A DNA stretch of 64,000 nt, taken from NCBI GenBank assembly GCA_000720535.1, contig JOAZ01000005.1, forward strand, positions 124,001 through 188,000, in the 5' to 3' direction. The stretch is from Streptomyces halstedii (lineage in GTDB: Bacteria > Actinomycetota > Actinomycetes > Streptomycetales > Streptomycetaceae). Positions 7,846-55,153 of the stretch are shown here, piece by piece (positions within the stretch are counted from its first letter, which is position 1; every line of letters starts with the position of its first letter). Both the position numbers and the translations under genes were made by a program. The notes under the pieces are model-generated. The model was not told where the DNA came from and ran no database searches. It saw only the letters and a program-made list of their open reading frames with translations.

Positions 7846-8424
7846 GTGACGGTCAACATGACCAAGGGCCAGGCCATCAGCCTGCAGAAGAGCGACGGGG
7901 GGACCCTGACCGCGGTACGGATGGGGCTCGGATGGCAGGCGGCCCCGCGCCGCGGTCTGTTCGGATCGCGCACGCGGGAGATCGACCTGGACGCCTCGGC
8001 GGTGCTGTTCGCCGACAAGCAGCCCGTGGACGTCGTGTTCTTCCGCCACCTGACCAGCGACGACGGCTCGGTCAAGCACACCGGTGACAACCTGGTCGGC
8101 GGTGCCGGCTCCGGCGGCGACGACGAGGCGATCCTGGTCGACCTCCAGCGGGTGCCGGTCCACATCGACCAGATCGTCTTCACGGTGAACTCCTTCACCG
8201 GCCAGACGTTCCAGGAGGTGCAGAACGCCTTCTGCCGCATCGTCGACGAGACCAACGGCCAGGAGCTGGCCCGCTACACGCTGGACGGCGGCGGCCAGTA
8301 CACGGCCCAGATCATGGCCAAGGTCCACCGCGTGGGCAACGGCTGGCAGATGACCGCCCTGGGCAACCCGGCCAACGGCCGGACCTTCCAGGACCTGATG
8401 CCGTCGATCCTGCCGCACCTGTAG
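7846..8424 (+). CDS. terD: TerD-family stress protein (tellurium resistance / calcium-binding)
   Basis: A 192-residue single-domain TerD protein. The family core is clear: MGLGWQ, the calcium-ligand segment EIDLDASAVLF, SDDGSVKHTGDNLVGG, and the strand IVFTVNSFTGQTFQEV. TerD proteins bind calcium and are linked to tellurite, phage and oxidative stress tolerance and, in Streptomyces, to differentiation; the exact activity is unknown. GTG 7846 follows GAGAGGGGAC; a nearby in-frame ATG at 7858 is the alternative. It resembles the C-terminal half of the double-TerD protein at 62321-63547 more than the N-terminal half. It is followed by the TerD-ATPase fusion and terC. Confidence 0.93.
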   Translation: MTVNMTKGQAISLQKSDGGTLTAVRMGLGWQAAPRRGLFGSRTREIDLDASAVLFADKQPVDVVFFRHLTSDDGSVKHTGDNLVGGAGSGGDDEAILVDLQRVPVHIDQIVFTVNSFTGQTFQEVQNAFCRIVDETNGQELARYTLDGGGQYTAQIMAKVHRVGNGWQMTALGNPANGRTFQDLMPSILPHL

Positions 8425-8556: not shown

Positions 8557-10548
8557 ATGACGGCCGAGCTGGTCCGGGGGCAGAACCACACCTTGCCCCA
8601 GACCCGTCTGGAGATCAGGGTGTCGGCGGGCTGCCCGGTGGTGGCCGGGGCCACCCTCGGCGACGAGCACGGCACGGTCCGGGGCACCGAGTGGGTCGCC
8701 CATCCGGGCTCGCCACGGCTGCCCGGCCTGGAGGTCTCGCGGCAGGCCGCCGCCGATCACCGGCTCGCCGTGGACCTCGACGCCCTGCCCGGCGCGGTCC
8801 ACCGGGTCACCGTGCTCCTGGCACTGCCCACCGGGGCCGGCCACCCCGCCAGGTTCGGTGCGGTCGCCGCGCCGTTCGTCGCGGTCACCGGTCTCGACGG
8901 TACGGAGATCGCCACCTTCACGCTCATCGGCCTGGACACCGAGTCGGCCGTGGCCGCCCTGGAGCTCTACCGCCGCCAGGGCGCCTGGAAGGTCCGCGCG
9001 GTCGGCCAGGGGTACGCCGCCGGGCTCGCCGGAATGCTCGCCGATCAGGGCCTCGACCGGGCGGCGGAGCTGGCCGCGTCGATCCAGGACGCCGTCGCCT
9101 CGGGGCTCGCCCGCTCCGTCGCGCCCCCGCCGCCCCGCGCCCCGGAGGGCGAGCGCGTCCGCCACCCCTCGGGCCCCGCACCGGCCCCCACCGACCCGGC
9201 CCCGCCGAGGCCCGGGTCCGAGCCGCTGGGCGGCCCCACCACGGGTCCGGCCCCCGGTGCCACCACGGGCACGGCCCCGGGCGCGGCGGCGGCCGGCAAC
9301 GCCGCTCCGGGCACCGCGGGCGGGGGGCCGATCGACTACGCGCACCCCCGCCGACAGACCTCCGCCCCGCCCCCGCCGCCTCCCACGGCCCCGGCCGCCG
9401 CCCCGGGACAGCCCGCGCCGCCCGTGGCCGGTGACGCCACCGGCTGGTCCATGGACGAACGCCTGTACAACCAGATCTGGGGCATGTTCGAGGATCTGGC
9501 GCGCGCCGTCGCCGCGTACCGCAGCGCCGTCGACTTCGCCGAGTCCCGGATGGAGCAGGAGCTCGACCGGGCCCTGTCCGACCCGCGTCACCGCATGGGC
9601 GGCGCGGGCGACCTGGCACGCGAGCGGGCCAGGGACAAGTGCCAGGACCTCACCGCGCGGGCGCGCGAGGTCCTGGACCGCGACCTGTCCCAGCTCGCCG
9701 CCGAGTCGGCCGTGGTCGAGCCCGCGCTCCCGGCCCCCTACGCCGGCTGGGGCAACCCCGTCTGGCACGGCTACCGCGTGCCGATGGAGCTCCCCATGGC
9801 CCTGCGCCTGGGTGACCTGCACCTCCCCGAGCGGACGGACCTGCGCATCCCGCTGCTGGTCCGGCTGCCCCTGGAGCGCGGCGTCTGGATCGACAGCGGG
9901 CGCACGGCCTCCGAGGCCGCCGCGGCGACGGGCGGGGACCGGCTGCGCCGCCTGGCCATGGACACCGCCGTCACCCTGGCCGCGCGGCTGCTGGCCGTCT
10001 ACCCGGCGAACGAGTTCTCCGTGCACGTCATCGACCCCGCGGGCGCCGCCGCGGGCGCCCTCGCCCCGCTGACCGACGCCGGTGTCCTGGCGGCGCCGCC
10101 CGCCTCCGGCGCCGGGGGTGTGAGCGCGGTCCTCGCCCATCTCACCCGGCGCGTCGACCTGGTGCAGATGGCTGTGCGGGCGGGCGCCGCCGACTCGCTG
10201 CCGCCGGACCTGGACACGGGCGAACACCTGCTGATCGTCAACGACTTCCCCCACGGCTTCGACGACCGGGCGGTCACCCAGCTGCGCTACCTCGCCGACG
10301 AGGGCCCCGCGGTGGGCGTGCACCTGCTGATGGTGGCCGACCGCGAGGACGCGCGCGACTACGGTCCCGTCCTCGACCCGCTGTGGCGGTCCCTGCTGCG
10401 CGTCACCCCGGTCGCCGACGACCACCTCGTCGACCCGTGGGTGGGCCACGCCTGGACGTACGAGCCGTGCCGGGTGCCGGAGGGCAGCCGTGTCCTGGAG
10501 CAGGTGCTCGCTCTGGTGGCCGCCGCTCGCCGGGCGGACCCTCGCTGA
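8557..10548 (+). CDS. TerD-domain protein fused to a degenerate FtsK/HerA-like ATPase domain
   Basis: A 663-residue cytoplasmic protein. Residues 1-175 are a TerD-like domain (strand VAALELYRRQGAWKVRAVGQGYA is its clearest part) without the DLDAS calcium segment. Residues 190-300 are a Pro/Ala/Gly-rich linker. From about 305 a helical region (MDERLYNQIWGMFEDLARAV onward) leads to an alpha/beta domain whose order of strands resembles FtsK/SpoIIIE/HerA ATPases: RIPLLVRLPL, then a helix, VHVIDPAG, and a Walker-B-like strand LLIVNDFPHGFDD followed by GVHLLMVAD. There is no GxxxxGKS/T, so nucleotide hydrolysis is unlikely. ATG 8557 follows GAGGGGAC. The FtsK-like assignment is inference from pattern; the TerD part is firmer. 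Confidence 0.8.
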   Translation: MTAELVRGQNHTLPQTRLEIRVSAGCPVVAGATLGDEHGTVRGTEWVAHPGSPRLPGLEVSRQAAADHRLAVDLDALPGAVHRVTVLLALPTGAGHPARFGAVAAPFVAVTGLDGTEIATFTLIGLDTESAVAALELYRRQGAWKVRAVGQGYAAGLAGMLADQGLDRAAELAASIQDAVASGLARSVAPPPPRAPEGERVRHPSGPAPAPTDPAPPRPGSEPLGGPTTGPAPGATTGTAPGAAAAGNAAPGTAGGGPIDYAHPRRQTSAPPPPPPTAPAAAPGQPAPPVAGDATGWSMDERLYNQIWGMFEDLARAVAAYRSAVDFAESRMEQELDRALSDPRHRMGGAGDLARERARDKCQDLTARAREVLDRDLSQLAAESAVVEPALPAPYAGWGNPVWHGYRVPMELPMALRLGDLHLPERTDLRIPLLVRLPLERGVWIDSGRTASEAAAATGGDRLRRLAMDTAVTLAARLLAVYPANEFSVHVIDPAGAAAGALAPLTDAGVLAAPPASGAGGVSAVLAHLTRRVDLVQMAVRAGAADSLPPDLDTGEHLLIVNDFPHGFDDRAVTQLRYLADEGPAVGVHLLMVADREDARDYGPVLDPLWRSLLRVTPVADDHLVDPWVGHAWTYEPCRVPEGSRVLEQVLALVAAARRADPR

Positions 10549-10574
10549 ACGGTCCACCTGGCCGAAGCAACCTT

Positions 10575-10595
10575 CTGACCAGCCATTTTGGTCAG
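10575..10595 (+). terminator. Short intrinsic-type terminator
   Basis: CTGACCA (10575-10581) and TGGTCAG (10589-10595) form a 7-bp stem with a 7-base loop, followed by TCTTT. It ends the TerD-ATPase gene and separates it from the terC riboswitch. The same inverted repeat could instead be a protein-binding site. Confidence 0.55.
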
Positions 10596-10647
10596 TCTTT
10601 GCCCGGCTCTTTACCTTCTCTTGGTGTTTCCTGTACTGTTCTTCAGG

Positions 10648-10799
10648 CGGAGGGGAGTACTCCCGATCGCGGCGTTCCCGTCAATACGGACTGTGACCGG
10701 TCCCGGGGCGCCGGCCCGGCGCGCGGCCCGCGCCCCCGGGTGGAGGAGACCTCCGGCAGCGACGACGCTGATCTATAGCCCGTAGCGAACTGCCGGAGG
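10648..10799 (+). promoter_or_regulatory. yybP-ykoY (Mn2+) riboswitch with SD-sequestering expression platform
   Basis: The leader carries the two conserved aptamer segments of the manganese riboswitch: GGGGAGTA at 10652-10659 and GAGACCTCC at 10746-10754. They sit in two arms closed by CGGAGG (10648-10653) pairing with CCTCCG (10750-10755). The 3' aptamer strand CCTCCGGCAG (10750-10759) is also perfectly complementary over ten bases to CTGCCGGAGG (10790-10799), which contains the terC ribosome-binding site GGAGG. The two pairings are mutually exclusive, so metal binding would free the SD and switch translation on. A possible promoter is TTTACC (10610-10615) with TACTGT (10634-10639), 18 bases apart. 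The class is known to control terC/alx/mntP-type genes. Confidence 0.85.
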
Positions 10800-10803
10800 C
10801 GCA

Positions 10804-11811
10804 GTGGACGTTTCATGGACCCTCTGGGTGCTGACCATTCTCGGTCTGGTCGCCCTCATCTCCGTCGACTTCTTCATCGGGCGCAAACCCCATGACGTGT
10901 CGACCAAGGAAGCCGGTATCTGGACGGTCGTCTGGATCGCGCTGGCCGTGCTCTTCGGACTCGGACTCCTGGTCTTCGGAGGAAGCCGGCCGTCCGGCGA
11001 GTTCTTCGCCGGCTTCATCACCGAGAAGTCGCTCAGTGTCGACAACCTCTTCGTCTTCGTCCTGATCATGGCGAAGTTCTCGGTGCCCTCCCACCTCCAG
11101 CAGCGGGTTCTGCTGGTCGGCGTGCTGATCGCCCTGGTGCTGCGGGCGGGTTTCATCGCGGCCGGCGCGGCGGTCATCGCCAACTTCTCGTGGGTCTTCT
11201 ACCTCTTCGGCGCGTTCCTGATCTACACCGCCTGGAAGCTGATCCAGGAGGCGCGGGCCGACGAGGAGGACGAGGAGTTCGAGGAGAACCGCCTCCTCAA
11301 GACGATCGAGCGCCGCTTCGGTGTCGCCGACCGGTACCACGGCACCAAGCTCTTCATCCGCGCCAACGGCAAGCGCGTCCTGACCCCGCTCATGGTGGTC
11401 ATGCTCGCCATCGGCACCACCGATGTGCTCTTCGCGCTCGACTCCATCCCGGCGATCTTCGGACTGACCCAGGACCCGTACATCGTCTTCACCGCCAACG
11501 CCTTCGCCCTGATGGGTCTGCGGCAGCTGTACTTCCTGATCGGCGGTCTGCTGAAGAAGCTGGTGCACCTCAGCTACGGGCTCTCGGTGATCCTCGGATT
11601 CATCGGCGTCAAGCTGGTGCTGCACGCGCTGCACGAGTCCGGGGTGCACGTCCCCGAGATCTCCATCCCGTTCTCCCTCTCCGTCATCTGCGGCGTCCTG
11701 GTGGTCACCACGATCACCAGCCTGATCGCCAACAAGAAGCGGGAGGCGGCCGACGCCGAGGCCCTGGAGGCGGCCGGCGAGAAGCACGAGAACGCCGGCG
11801 CCGAGAAGTAG
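10804..11811 (+). CDS. terC: TerC-family integral membrane protein, probable Mn2+ exporter
   Basis: A 335-residue TerC/Alx protein with 8-9 membrane helices. Family marks are the acidic membrane segments VSWTLWVLTILGLVALISVD at the start, SLSVDNLFVFVLIM, and GTTDVLFALDSIPAIFGLTQD, where the intramembrane aspartates are thought to bind metal. A charged loop (residues about 145-170, EDEEFEENR) lies on the cytoplasmic side and the tail is Glu/Lys/Ala-rich. Recent family knowledge assigns TerC/Alx to manganese efflux, including metallation of exported proteins. GTG 10804 has GGAGG five bases upstream, and that SD is part of the riboswitch switch. It completes the Ter locus with the two TerD genes upstream. 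Confidence 0.95.
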   Translation: MDVSWTLWVLTILGLVALISVDFFIGRKPHDVSTKEAGIWTVVWIALAVLFGLGLLVFGGSRPSGEFFAGFITEKSLSVDNLFVFVLIMAKFSVPSHLQQRVLLVGVLIALVLRAGFIAAGAAVIANFSWVFYLFGAFLIYTAWKLIQEARADEEDEEFEENRLLKTIERRFGVADRYHGTKLFIRANGKRVLTPLMVVMLAIGTTDVLFALDSIPAIFGLTQDPYIVFTANAFALMGLRQLYFLIGGLLKKLVHLSYGLSVILGFIGVKLVLHALHESGVHVPEISIPFSLSVICGVLVVTTITSLIANKKREAADAEALEAAGEKHENAGAEK

Positions 11812-11844
11812 CGGGCGGCCGCCGCGAGGCGGTGCGGACACGGC

Positions 11845-11879
11845 ACGGCGGCCGGGGCCCCAGGGCACCCGGCCGCCGT
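11845..11879. terminator. Bidirectional terminator between terC and the convergent hydrolase
   Basis: ACGGCGGCCGGG (11845-11856) pairs perfectly with CCCGGCCGCCGT (11868-11879) around an 11-base loop. It lies between two converging genes and can serve both. Confidence 0.75.
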
Positions 11880-11886
11880 ACGCCGT

Positions 11887-12543
11887 TCACCAGCCCCGTG
11901 CGCGCCACTCCGCGAGGTGGGGGCGCTCGGCGCCCAGCGTGGTGTCGTGGCCGTGGCCGGGGTAGACCCAGGTCTCGTCCGGCAGAGGGGCGAAGAGCTT
12001 GGTCTCCACGTCGTGGAGCAGGCTCGCGAAGGCCGCCGGGTCCTGCCGGGTGTTGCCCACGCCACCCGGGAAGAGGCAGTCGCCGGTGAAGAGGTGCGGG
12101 GCGCCGTGCGGGTCGTCGTAGACCAGGGCGATGGAGCCGGGGGTGTGCCCGGTCAGATGGCGGGCGGTCAGCGCGATCTCGCCCACCCGGACCGTGTCGC
12201 CGTCGTCCACGAGGACGTCCGTCGGGACCGGGATGCCCTCGGCGTCGTACCGCCCGGCGAGGGTGCGCGCCCCGGTGGCCGCCACCACCTCGTCCAGCGC
12301 CTGCCAGTGGTCGCCGTGCCGGTGCGTGGTGACCACGGAGGCGATGCCGTCCGCACCGATCAGCCGCAGCAGCGTCCCGGCCTCGGCGGCCGCGTCGATC
12401 AGCAACTGCTCGCCGGTGGCACGGCAGCGCAGCAGATAGGCGTTGTTGTTCATCTGCCCGACGGCGACCTTGGAGATCATGAGATCTGTCAGCTCGTGCA
12501 CATCCGCGGGTCCGCCGACCCTGACCGCTCCGCTGTACGTCAT
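11887..12543 (-). CDS. Metallo-beta-lactamase-fold hydrolase (glyoxalase II-like)
   Basis: A 218-residue MBL-fold hydrolase. The metal site is complete: THRHGDHW (HxHxDH), GHTPGS with the next His, FTGDCLFPGG with the bridging Asp, and YPGHG with the last His. The spacing fits glyoxalase-II/persulfide-dioxygenase-like enzymes acting on thioesters; with a mycothiol-type protein beside it, a mycothiol conjugate is a reasonable guess but unproven. ATG 12543 is preceded by TAGGGT (12556-12551) with seven bases between and no SD, so the mRNA is probably leaderless. The GTG at 12552 would lie in the -10 box. Its promoter overlaps the 3' end of the next upstream gene. Confidence 0.9.
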   Translation of the reverse strand: MTYSGAVRVGGPADVHELTDLMISKVAVGQMNNNAYLLRCRATGEQLLIDAAAEAGTLLRLIGADGIASVVTTHRHGDHWQALDEVVAATGARTLAGRYDAEGIPVPTDVLVDDGDTVRVGEIALTARHLTGHTPGSIALVYDDPHGAPHLFTGDCLFPGGVGNTRQDPAAFASLLHDVETKLFAPLPDETWVYPGHGHDTTLGAERPHLAEWRARGW

Positions 12544-12553
12544 ACGCCGCACC

Positions 12554-13243
12554 CTATAGCGGCGGAAGCGTGGGAAGGAGGCCGCCTTCCACGGTGAGCC
12601 CCGAGCCGTCGCGGCGTCCGCAGAGCCACCCGAGGATCTCGGTGGCCGTGCCCCGTACGACGACCGGATCGCCTTCGGCGCCCCCGCCCGTGGTCCAGAT
12701 CCGGCCGTCCCCGGACACGGCGGTCGTGGCGGCCACCCCGGGGTGGCCGGCGAAGCGCTCGGCCAGGAAGTCGTTCTCCCGGGAGACGAACTCCTCCGGC
12801 AGGTCCTCCAGCTCGTAGCCGGTTCCCAGGTCCACGTGGTGCAGCTCGACCTCGGCGAGGCGCCGGAAGGGGAGCCGCCGTGCCTGATCCGTCACACCGT
12901 TGCGCAGGGTGACCGCACGGGACCAGTCCGCGGGCGCTTCGGCCGCGGCCAGGAAGCCGGCGGAGCTTTCGCGCAGGTCGGCGACCTGCGCGTCCAGCGG
13001 CCGGGGGGCGTCCCTCTCGATGTCCGCGTCCCGGGTTTCGCTGCTCGCGTACATCGGGTGCCCACGGAGAACATTTGCGAGCGCGTCGGCGTTACGTGAC
13101 AGGTGGGCGAGTACATGGCCACGGCTCCAGCCCGGCAGGCGCGACGGTCCGCCGAGCGTGGCGTCGTCCCATGTGCCCGTGGCTCCGAGCAGCCGATCGG
13201 TCGCTTCACGTACAGCTTCCAGGTCGTGCGCATGATCGATCAT
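12554..13243 (-). CDS. Maleylpyruvate-isomerase-family (DinB-fold) mycothiol-dependent enzyme
   Basis: A 229-residue protein of the mycothiol-dependent maleylpyruvate isomerase / DinB_2 superfamily. The N-terminal four-helix domain carries the metal histidine in GHVLAHLSRNADAL and the later pair in EVELHHVDLGTGY; the C-terminal part is the small MDMPI domain with GTATEILGWLCGR. These enzymes use mycothiol, the actinobacterial glutathione substitute, for transfers or isomerisation; the substrate here is unknown. ATG 13243 lies six bases after TACGCT (13255-13250) without an SD, again suggesting a leaderless message. It is divergent from uvrA and directly upstream of the hydrolase gene. Confidence 0.85.
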   Translation of the reverse strand: MIDHAHDLEAVREATDRLLGATGTWDDATLGGPSRLPGWSRGHVLAHLSRNADALANVLRGHPMYASSETRDADIERDAPRPLDAQVADLRESSAGFLAAAEAPADWSRAVTLRNGVTDQARRLPFRRLAEVELHHVDLGTGYELEDLPEEFVSRENDFLAERFAGHPGVAATTAVSGDGRIWTTGGGAEGDPVVVRGTATEILGWLCGRRDGSGLTVEGGLLPTLPPL

Positions 13244-54954: not shown

Positions 54955-55105
54955 TACGGCACGGTCTTGGCCATGCACCCGTCACGCGGTACCGTCATCC
55001 CGATATGACGACGGCGAGACGGAAGCCGGTGGGAATCCGGTACGGTCGCGCCACTGTGTACGAGGCCCTTGGGGTGCCTCGTGAGTCAGACCCGTGGCCG
55101 TCGTC
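54955..55105 (+). promoter_or_regulatory. Cobalamin (B12) riboswitch
   Basis: The conserved aptamer core is present: the GGAAGCCGGTGGGAATCCGG block (55021-55040), then CGGTCGCGCCACTGT (55043-55057), and the B12-box region GTGAGTCAGACC (55081-55092), closed by CACGG (about 54956) with CCGTG (55092-55096). The leader runs to the cbtB SD AGGAGG (55141-55146), where CTCC (55134-55137) pairs with GGAG (55142-55145) in a small SD-sequestering hairpin. B12 would switch off translation. Exact ends are approximate. Confidence 0.9.
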
Positions 55106-55153
55106 CTTGTGCACCACCGATACGGGACGCGAACTCCCTCAGGAGGCCTTGCC

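Follow-up and report, generated by a model that had tools for sequence, protein, structure and literature searches.

What controls terC in the Ter locus of Streptomyces halstedii? The gene lies in the window, by which we mean the whole stretch of 64,000 nucleotides that was analysed (contig JOAZ01000005.1, positions 124,001 to 188,000). It is preceded by a leader (10648-10799) that contains parts known from yybP-ykoY aptamers: P1.1, L1, P1.2, P3.1, L3, P3.2, P4 and GAGACC. We conclude that this leader is very probably a Mn2+-sensing yybP-ykoY riboswitch of the alx type, which would act on translation. The computed basis consists of homology to published Mn2+ riboswitches, conserved metal-site bases, covariation of both pairings and the gene context; Mn2+ as the ligand and the direction of the switch are what we infer. 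The strings quoted in a sequence-only reading of this DNA, which had proposed such a switch, are all present where that reading had placed them, including CGGAGG (10648-10653), GTG (10804), GGGGAGTA (10652-10659) and GAGACCTCC (10746-10754). The features of the locus are the following.

10610-10615 (TTTACC) and 10634-10639 (TACTGT), plus strand: candidate promoter with an 18-base spacer, placed from conservation only
10648-10653, plus strand: 5′ strand of P1.1, CGGAGG, a copy of the Shine-Dalgarno sequence
10654-10659, plus strand: L1, GGAGUA
10660-10663, plus strand: 5′ strand of P1.2, CUCC, pairs with 10742-10745
10670-10680, plus strand: 5′ strand of P3.1, pairs with 10704-10713
10681-10687, plus strand: L3 bulge, UCAAUAC, seven bases between P3.1 and P3.2, opposite strand continuous
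10688-10703, plus strand: P3.2 hairpin, with GC/AU and CG/UA exchanges
10715-10740, plus strand: P4 hairpin, variable in length, with CG/UA exchanges
10742-10749, plus strand: 3′ strand of P1.2, GGAG, followed by the 3′ side of L1, GAGA
10750-10759, plus strand: switch strand CCUCCGGCAG (CCTCCGGCAG); it closes P1.1 with its first six bases and pairs over its full length with 10790-10799
10790-10799, plus strand: masked strand CUGCCGGAGG (CTGCCGGAGG), with the Shine-Dalgarno GGAGG at 10795-10799
10804-11811, plus strand: terC, 335 amino acids, GTG start, TerC/Alx family (PF03741, 4.3e-52)

The terC product scores above the curated cut-off of the NCBI family TIGR03718, R_switched_Alx (382.5 bits versus 246.4); we take "R_switched" in this name to mean riboswitched. 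A TTTACC-like element with a TANNNT element at a spacing of 17-18 was found in 106 of 107 Streptomyces leaders, a conservation count made with no chance control, and 94 of the 107 have the promoter-like pair 8 bases 5′ of P1.1. A consensus scan of 10500-12000 detected no sigma-70-like site. Transcription probably starts near 10646, directly before the aptamer, and with the promoter as placed here the aptamer would be the extreme 5′ end of the terC mRNA. The block CTTTACC...CTTGG...GTAC (10608-10639) is kept in many Streptomyces leaders and by eye exceeds what a promoter needs; it is possibly a regulator site. Downstream on the plus strand terC stands alone, the following genes (11887-13243) are located on the opposite strand, and the TerD genes (7846-8424 and 8557-10548) are found upstream of the putative promoter. 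The earlier proposal that manganese controls the whole Ter locus is not supported, since the leader precedes terC only. Elsewhere in the window a cobalamin riboswitch (RF00174) was identified at 54970-55116 on the plus strand (33.4 bits, cut-off 31.5), which is the sole Rfam match over the cut-off.

Of 150 Streptomyces genomes, 143 contain at least part of a 201-base leader stretch; the matches are in some cases short and weak. For the comparison, 130 Streptomyces loci were compiled. Besides the window they comprise 80 TerC matches, the 29 best leader matches and 20 loci picked for their divergence (labelled window, L002-L081 and L083-L131; some genomes are represented twice). The full leader pattern is present in 123 of them, which correspond to 107 distinct sequences (alignment A1). 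The seven loci in which it is incomplete (L051, L062, L066, L075, L118, L121 and L122) were left out of the structure counts. Four of these (L051, L062, L118 and L121) have lost the aptamer core and kept the downstream Shine-Dalgarno mask, with one mismatch in L062; in L051 the loss could be an assembly error. L066 and L122 have lost the leader and kept the promoter-like block, and L075 shows neither, as judged by eye. The second, wide set (A4) comprises 84 matches, including E. coli alx, aligned with R1, a covariance model made from 55 Streptomyces terC aptamers only.

The bases expected at the metal site are nearly or wholly invariant. L1 is the same in 106 of the 107 Streptomyces leaders and in 84/84 of the wide set, including E. 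coli alx. Its 3′ side, GAGA, is found in 107/107 Streptomyces leaders; in the wide set all 84 have AGA, and 78 also have the first G. Across the Streptomyces leaders L3 forms a bulge of seven bases, mostly UCA(A/G)UAC. According to excerpts of the published structural work, L3 is UCA41AU43UC in Lactococcus lactis and ACA48U49ACU52 in Xanthomonas oryzae, with N7 of the adenine binding Mn2+ (PMC6754395), and the L. lactis metal site is made up of G9, U39, C40, A41, U44 and C45 (PMC9190785, in part). Aligned by motif, A10683 corresponds to this metal-binding adenine, A41 of L. lactis and A48 of X. oryzae. In our motif alignment the metal-site places of L3 carry U, C, A, A and C in the window, a difference at U44 only. 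The adenine is present in 106 of the 107 Streptomyces leaders and in 84/84 of the wide set. The one exception, L120, has G at this place (L3 UCGAUAC) and also a changed L1 (GGAGCA), as if its sensor were decaying. A P2 arm is absent, with only 6 bases (10664-10669) between P1.2 and P3.1, so that the junction has three arms, a point against the assignment; P2 was not counted as class-defining, since alx leaves no space for it either.

The helices P1.1, P1.2, P3.1, P3.2 and P4 are backed by covariation, P1.1 and P1.2 in the wide set only. Standard pairs make up 95.9% of the cells of these five helices in the 107 leaders of A1, and changes on both sides were found in 8 pairs, exceeding all 500 shuffles. 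In A4 both sides changed in 21 of 27 pairs, with 431 such cells versus 135.9 ± 9.4 after shuffling, numbers that are biased upward by fitting A4 to the structure of the model and can be inflated by relatedness as well. The structure outscores every slid version of itself in A4. P1.1 is formed in 100% of the cells in A1 and covaries outside Streptomyces (pair 2, for example, is GC in 53 and CG in 20 members of A4); 21 of 82 members of the wide set lack its outermost pair, which counts against the assignment. The P1.2 pairs exchange in the wide set as well (UA 40/CG 35, UA 50/CG 32 and CG 67/UA 15), and within the 107 Streptomyces leaders its outer pair gave no support for covariation (Fisher p 0.35), with UA in 14, CG in 10, C.A in 82 and G.A in 1, that is, 83 of 107 non-standard. 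P3.1 has changes on both sides in 2/10 pairs in Streptomyces and in 8/10 in the wide set. RNAalifold on A2 favoured a local GGA/UCC hairpin over P1.2, which is clear only in the covariation of the wide set. The whole leader folded as a single sequence was no more stable than its shuffles (z −0.11); the fold energy of a single sequence thus proves nothing here, and the evidence is comparative.

For confirmation of the class, a search with the Rfam model RF00080 had been suggested by the sequence-only reading. This search (Rfam 15) failed, with no match at the cut-off in the window and none at E 10 in 10560-10830. The same model does not match the E. coli alx leader even at E 10 either, which makes the test uninformative, and the E. 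coli mntP leader reached 41.6 bits, below the cut-off of 45. At E ≤ 1 none of 40 related loci (20 terC loci outside Streptomyces, 15 Streptomyces terC loci and 5 other model matches) was detected, and a scan of 296 genomes of the class Actinomycetes yielded seven matches, none above the cut-off. The printed alignments leave P1.1 and the 3′ GAGACC strand uncovered and expect an L3 of the AACAUAC type, which explains the miss at terC. In view of the results for alx and mntP, membership in the class was not decided by an RF00080 score of 45 bits or more.

R1 in turn recovered, with 37-59 bits, all 8 actinobacterial loci at which RF00080 had given matches under its cut-off. Within E. coli K-12 sequence (8 kb) it found the alx leader with 40.2 bits (E 7.1e-7); the mntP leader obtained only 10 bits (E 0.81), which counts against the assignment. 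R1 matches were present in 136 of 150 Streptomyces genomes; in the class as a whole, 235 of the 394 genomes searched had one, covering 81 of 137 genera. Setting this against the 7 matches of RF00080 in 296 genomes is a rough comparison of different samples. The genome search with R1 also loses true sites: L001 was not reported there, yet it scores 59.1 bits when scored directly. The assignment of the leader to the yybP-ykoY class is thus supported by L1 and GAGA, the L3 adenine, covariation and the R1 homology to the Mn2+-responsive alx.

The gene context of the matches was analysed in 80 R1 loci, hand-picked for spread over families and genera and therefore non-random (one, L208, is from Streptomyces). 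They had been found by the RNA alone, and tblastn with the TerC protein of the window located a TerC gene downstream in 74 of the 80. The loci without one are L172, L201, L209, L211, L225 and L227. In five of these (L172, L209, L211, L225 and L227) the aptamer precedes non-TerC proteins of approximately 270-306 residues, which resemble one another on visual inspection. Scans of two of the five, L209 and L211, against Pfam and NCBIfam returned nothing over the cut-off; the five might represent a new Mn2+-regulated protein family. L201 has an aptamer with the three-strand switch, and the gene that follows encodes a PGPGW transmembrane protein (PF09656) in place of TerC. One genome contains two matches 1.3 kb apart (L188 and L238) with a TerC homologue after each, which look like tandem terC copies, each with its own switch.

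The central claim for the terC leader was that strand 10750-10759 takes part in two mutually exclusive pairings, one with the aptamer and one with the Shine-Dalgarno region, and this is borne out. The ten-base pairing of 10750-10759 with 10790-10799 is perfect, and the comparison of leaders places it beyond chance. Within Streptomyces the first eight pairs of the mask are formed in all leaders that have letters there, the last two in 60/102 and 63/102. Both sides have changed in two cells only, since CCUCC and GGAGG are fixed. Outside Streptomyces, 57 of 79 loci offer the switch strand a helix of at least 7 pairs within the 102 bases that follow it, compared to a mean of 31.3 and never more than 43 loci when the switch strands were permuted among the loci (1000 permutations). 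A Shine-Dalgarno-like motif is part of 54 of the 57 masks (not of L179, L181 and L218), which we discount as evidence because the partner of CCUC is GAGG-rich and the motif near-automatic; the 57 include a non-TerC locus, L227. The remaining 22 of the 79 loci have no 7-pair mask, so that this expression platform is not universal and some lineages use another.

These data also bear on the explanation that a plain Shine-Dalgarno hairpin, acting as a thermosensor or as constitutive damping, merely stands beside an unrelated conserved leader and that the likeness is due to chance or to the shared CCUCC/GGAGG. A CCUCC strand can indeed pair with any GGAGG, as the permutations illustrate, in which an average of 31 of the 79 loci reached 7 pairs, and four Streptomyces loci keep the mask without the aptamer core. 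Against this explanation, the mask follows P1.1 in the lineages in which P1.1 has another sequence. The aptamer, switch and mask strands are ACAAGG, CCUUGUG and CACAAGG in L201, CGAAGG, CCUUCGGCAGC and GCUGCCGAAGG in L204, and ACGAGG, CCUCGAACA and UGUUCGAGG in L197. Among the variant switch strands (not CCUCCG) 22 of 36 reach 7 pairs, with a mean of 7.31 versus 5.99 ± 0.21 after permutation. The switch strand thus tracks the Shine-Dalgarno strand across lineages, which means that aptamer, switch and Shine-Dalgarno strands change together, and we regard the plain hairpin as extremely unlikely.

The riboswitch proposed for terC would work as follows. Transcription would begin immediately 5′ of P1.1. 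At low Mn2+ strand 10750-10759 would pair with 10790-10799 and hide the terC Shine-Dalgarno (OFF). At high Mn2+ an ion between L1 and L3 would dock the two legs and stabilise P1.1; for the yybP-ykoY class, stabilisation of P1.1 by Mn2+ at L1-L3 is reported in PMC6754395 and PMC11087558. The stabilised P1.1 would then hold 10750-10755, leaving the Shine-Dalgarno free, and terC would be translated (ON). TerC would in turn clear Mn2+ from the cytosol or deliver it to exported enzymes. Parts of PMC10550928 describe Mn2+ efflux activity for TerC proteins and, in Bacillus subtilis, help in the loading of exported enzymes.

Nearest-neighbour energies were calculated for both states. In the window OFF is favoured by 8.1 kcal/mol, which counts against the switch; without ligand the mask has a pairing probability of about 0.8 (0.6 for its outermost pair) and P1.1 of zero. 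A sample of 36 leaders, taken from A1 at every third of its 107 rows, gave the advantage to OFF throughout, with a median of 9.3 kcal/mol (range 5.1-15.0), and a mask predicted to be paired without ligand in 35 of the 36. These differences are biased toward OFF, as the calculation of ON imposed the entire aptamer with its loops kept open and that of OFF imposed the mask only, and the energy model contains neither tertiary docking nor kinetics. The modelled energies fit a switch that is OFF by default, in which ligand, docking and co-transcriptional folding would have to pay the gap.

The same aptamer might act on transcription instead, by antitermination or Rho, with the pairing of the Shine-Dalgarno being secondary. 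Blocked translation could expose the RNA to Rho, which we count in favour of this explanation. The class also employs terminators elsewhere, as stated in excerpts of PMC6754395 and PMC11087558. Against it, a scan of 10500-12000 found no terminator-like site, and the mask covers the Shine-Dalgarno just 5′ of the start codon, with a switch strand that tracks it across lineages. We therefore consider action on transcription quite improbable. The translational ON design put forward for terC is supported by the position of the mask on the Shine-Dalgarno and by the scan for terminators, and the ON direction is the presumed one.

A further explanation keeps the RNA fold and replaces the signal: the leader would sense pH, or a divalent metal other than Mn2+, and Mn2+ would act as a mere co-factor. 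The alx and mntP leaders of E. coli respond to Mn2+ and also to alkaline pH, according to parts of PMC9603457. In Streptomyces the P1.2 pair that adjoins L1 (10660/10745) is C.A in 82 of 107 leaders, compared to 3 of 84 in the wide set, and a protonated C.A pair beside L1 could add pH dependence. The window itself has C-G at this pair, the metal-site bases are nearly or wholly invariant, and TerC proteins are linked to Mn2+ (PMC10550928). Another signal than Mn2+ is in our view unlikely.

Taken beyond terC, the data suggest, as a tentative picture that may well not hold in full, that actinobacteria contain a large and old branch of alx-type Mn2+ riboswitches, three-armed, mainly linked to terC and mostly unseen by Rfam, with a first strand that is a near-copy of the Shine-Dalgarno in most sampled lineages, so that one strand chooses between aptamer and ribosome site. 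If this is true, cytosolic Mn2+ would be coupled to the TerC-dependent loading of exported metalloenzymes in Streptomyces, which secrete many enzymes. The yybP-ykoY class and its link to TerC/Alx genes were already known. New, within the literature searched, are an actinobacterial branch that largely escapes the public RNA model now in use, and a switch that can be read from the sequence, with three strands changing together across lineages. Mn2+ control of TerC in Streptomyces becomes directly testable, and a model of the R1 type matched 235 of 394 sampled genomes.

No description of the Streptomyces terC leader was found in the open-licence PMC literature. PMC8164766 states that RNA-seq work on Corynebacterium and on Streptomyces has detected Mn2+ riboswitches, so that the Streptomyces leader may have been sighted before. 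A related actinobacterial case is cg2157 (terC) of Corynebacterium glutamicum, for which sections of PMC3890552 report a yybP-ykoY leader annotated with Rfam and seen by RNA-seq; it had 49 bits in the then-current Rfam. A second predicted Mn2+ riboswitch is located in the same S. halstedii genome (L001, contig 32, 1498-1596), upstream of a GDT1 gene (PF01169). Like the terC leader it is matched by R1, and it obtains 27.7 bits with RF00080, below the cut-off; it differs in the GDT1 antiporter gene downstream and in another L3.

The crystallized aptamers of L. lactis and X. oryzae share P1.1, L1, P1.2, L3, P3.2 and the invariant adenine with the terC leader (excerpts of PMC6754395 and PMC9190785), and L3 of terC has the same length and sequence type as the L. 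lactis UCAAUUC. They have a four-way junction and are reported with terminators, in contrast to the terC leader with no P2 and no terminator found. The mntP leader of E. coli belongs to the same class and has GGGGAGUA and GAGACC in common with terC; it is said to switch on translation initiation (PMC9603457, in part). It differs by its AACAUAC-type L3 and in its scores with the two models. A further counterpart is E. coli alx, which likewise has a TerC/Alx gene downstream, the same L1, an L3 of the same type (UCAUUAC), a match to R1 and only about 4 bases between P1.2 and P3.1, where P2 has no space. The two differ in the switch: by eye, CCUUGCC of alx can form a local hairpin with the adjoining GGCGAGG, whereas in Streptomyces the Shine-Dalgarno region itself is the direct partner of the switch strand.
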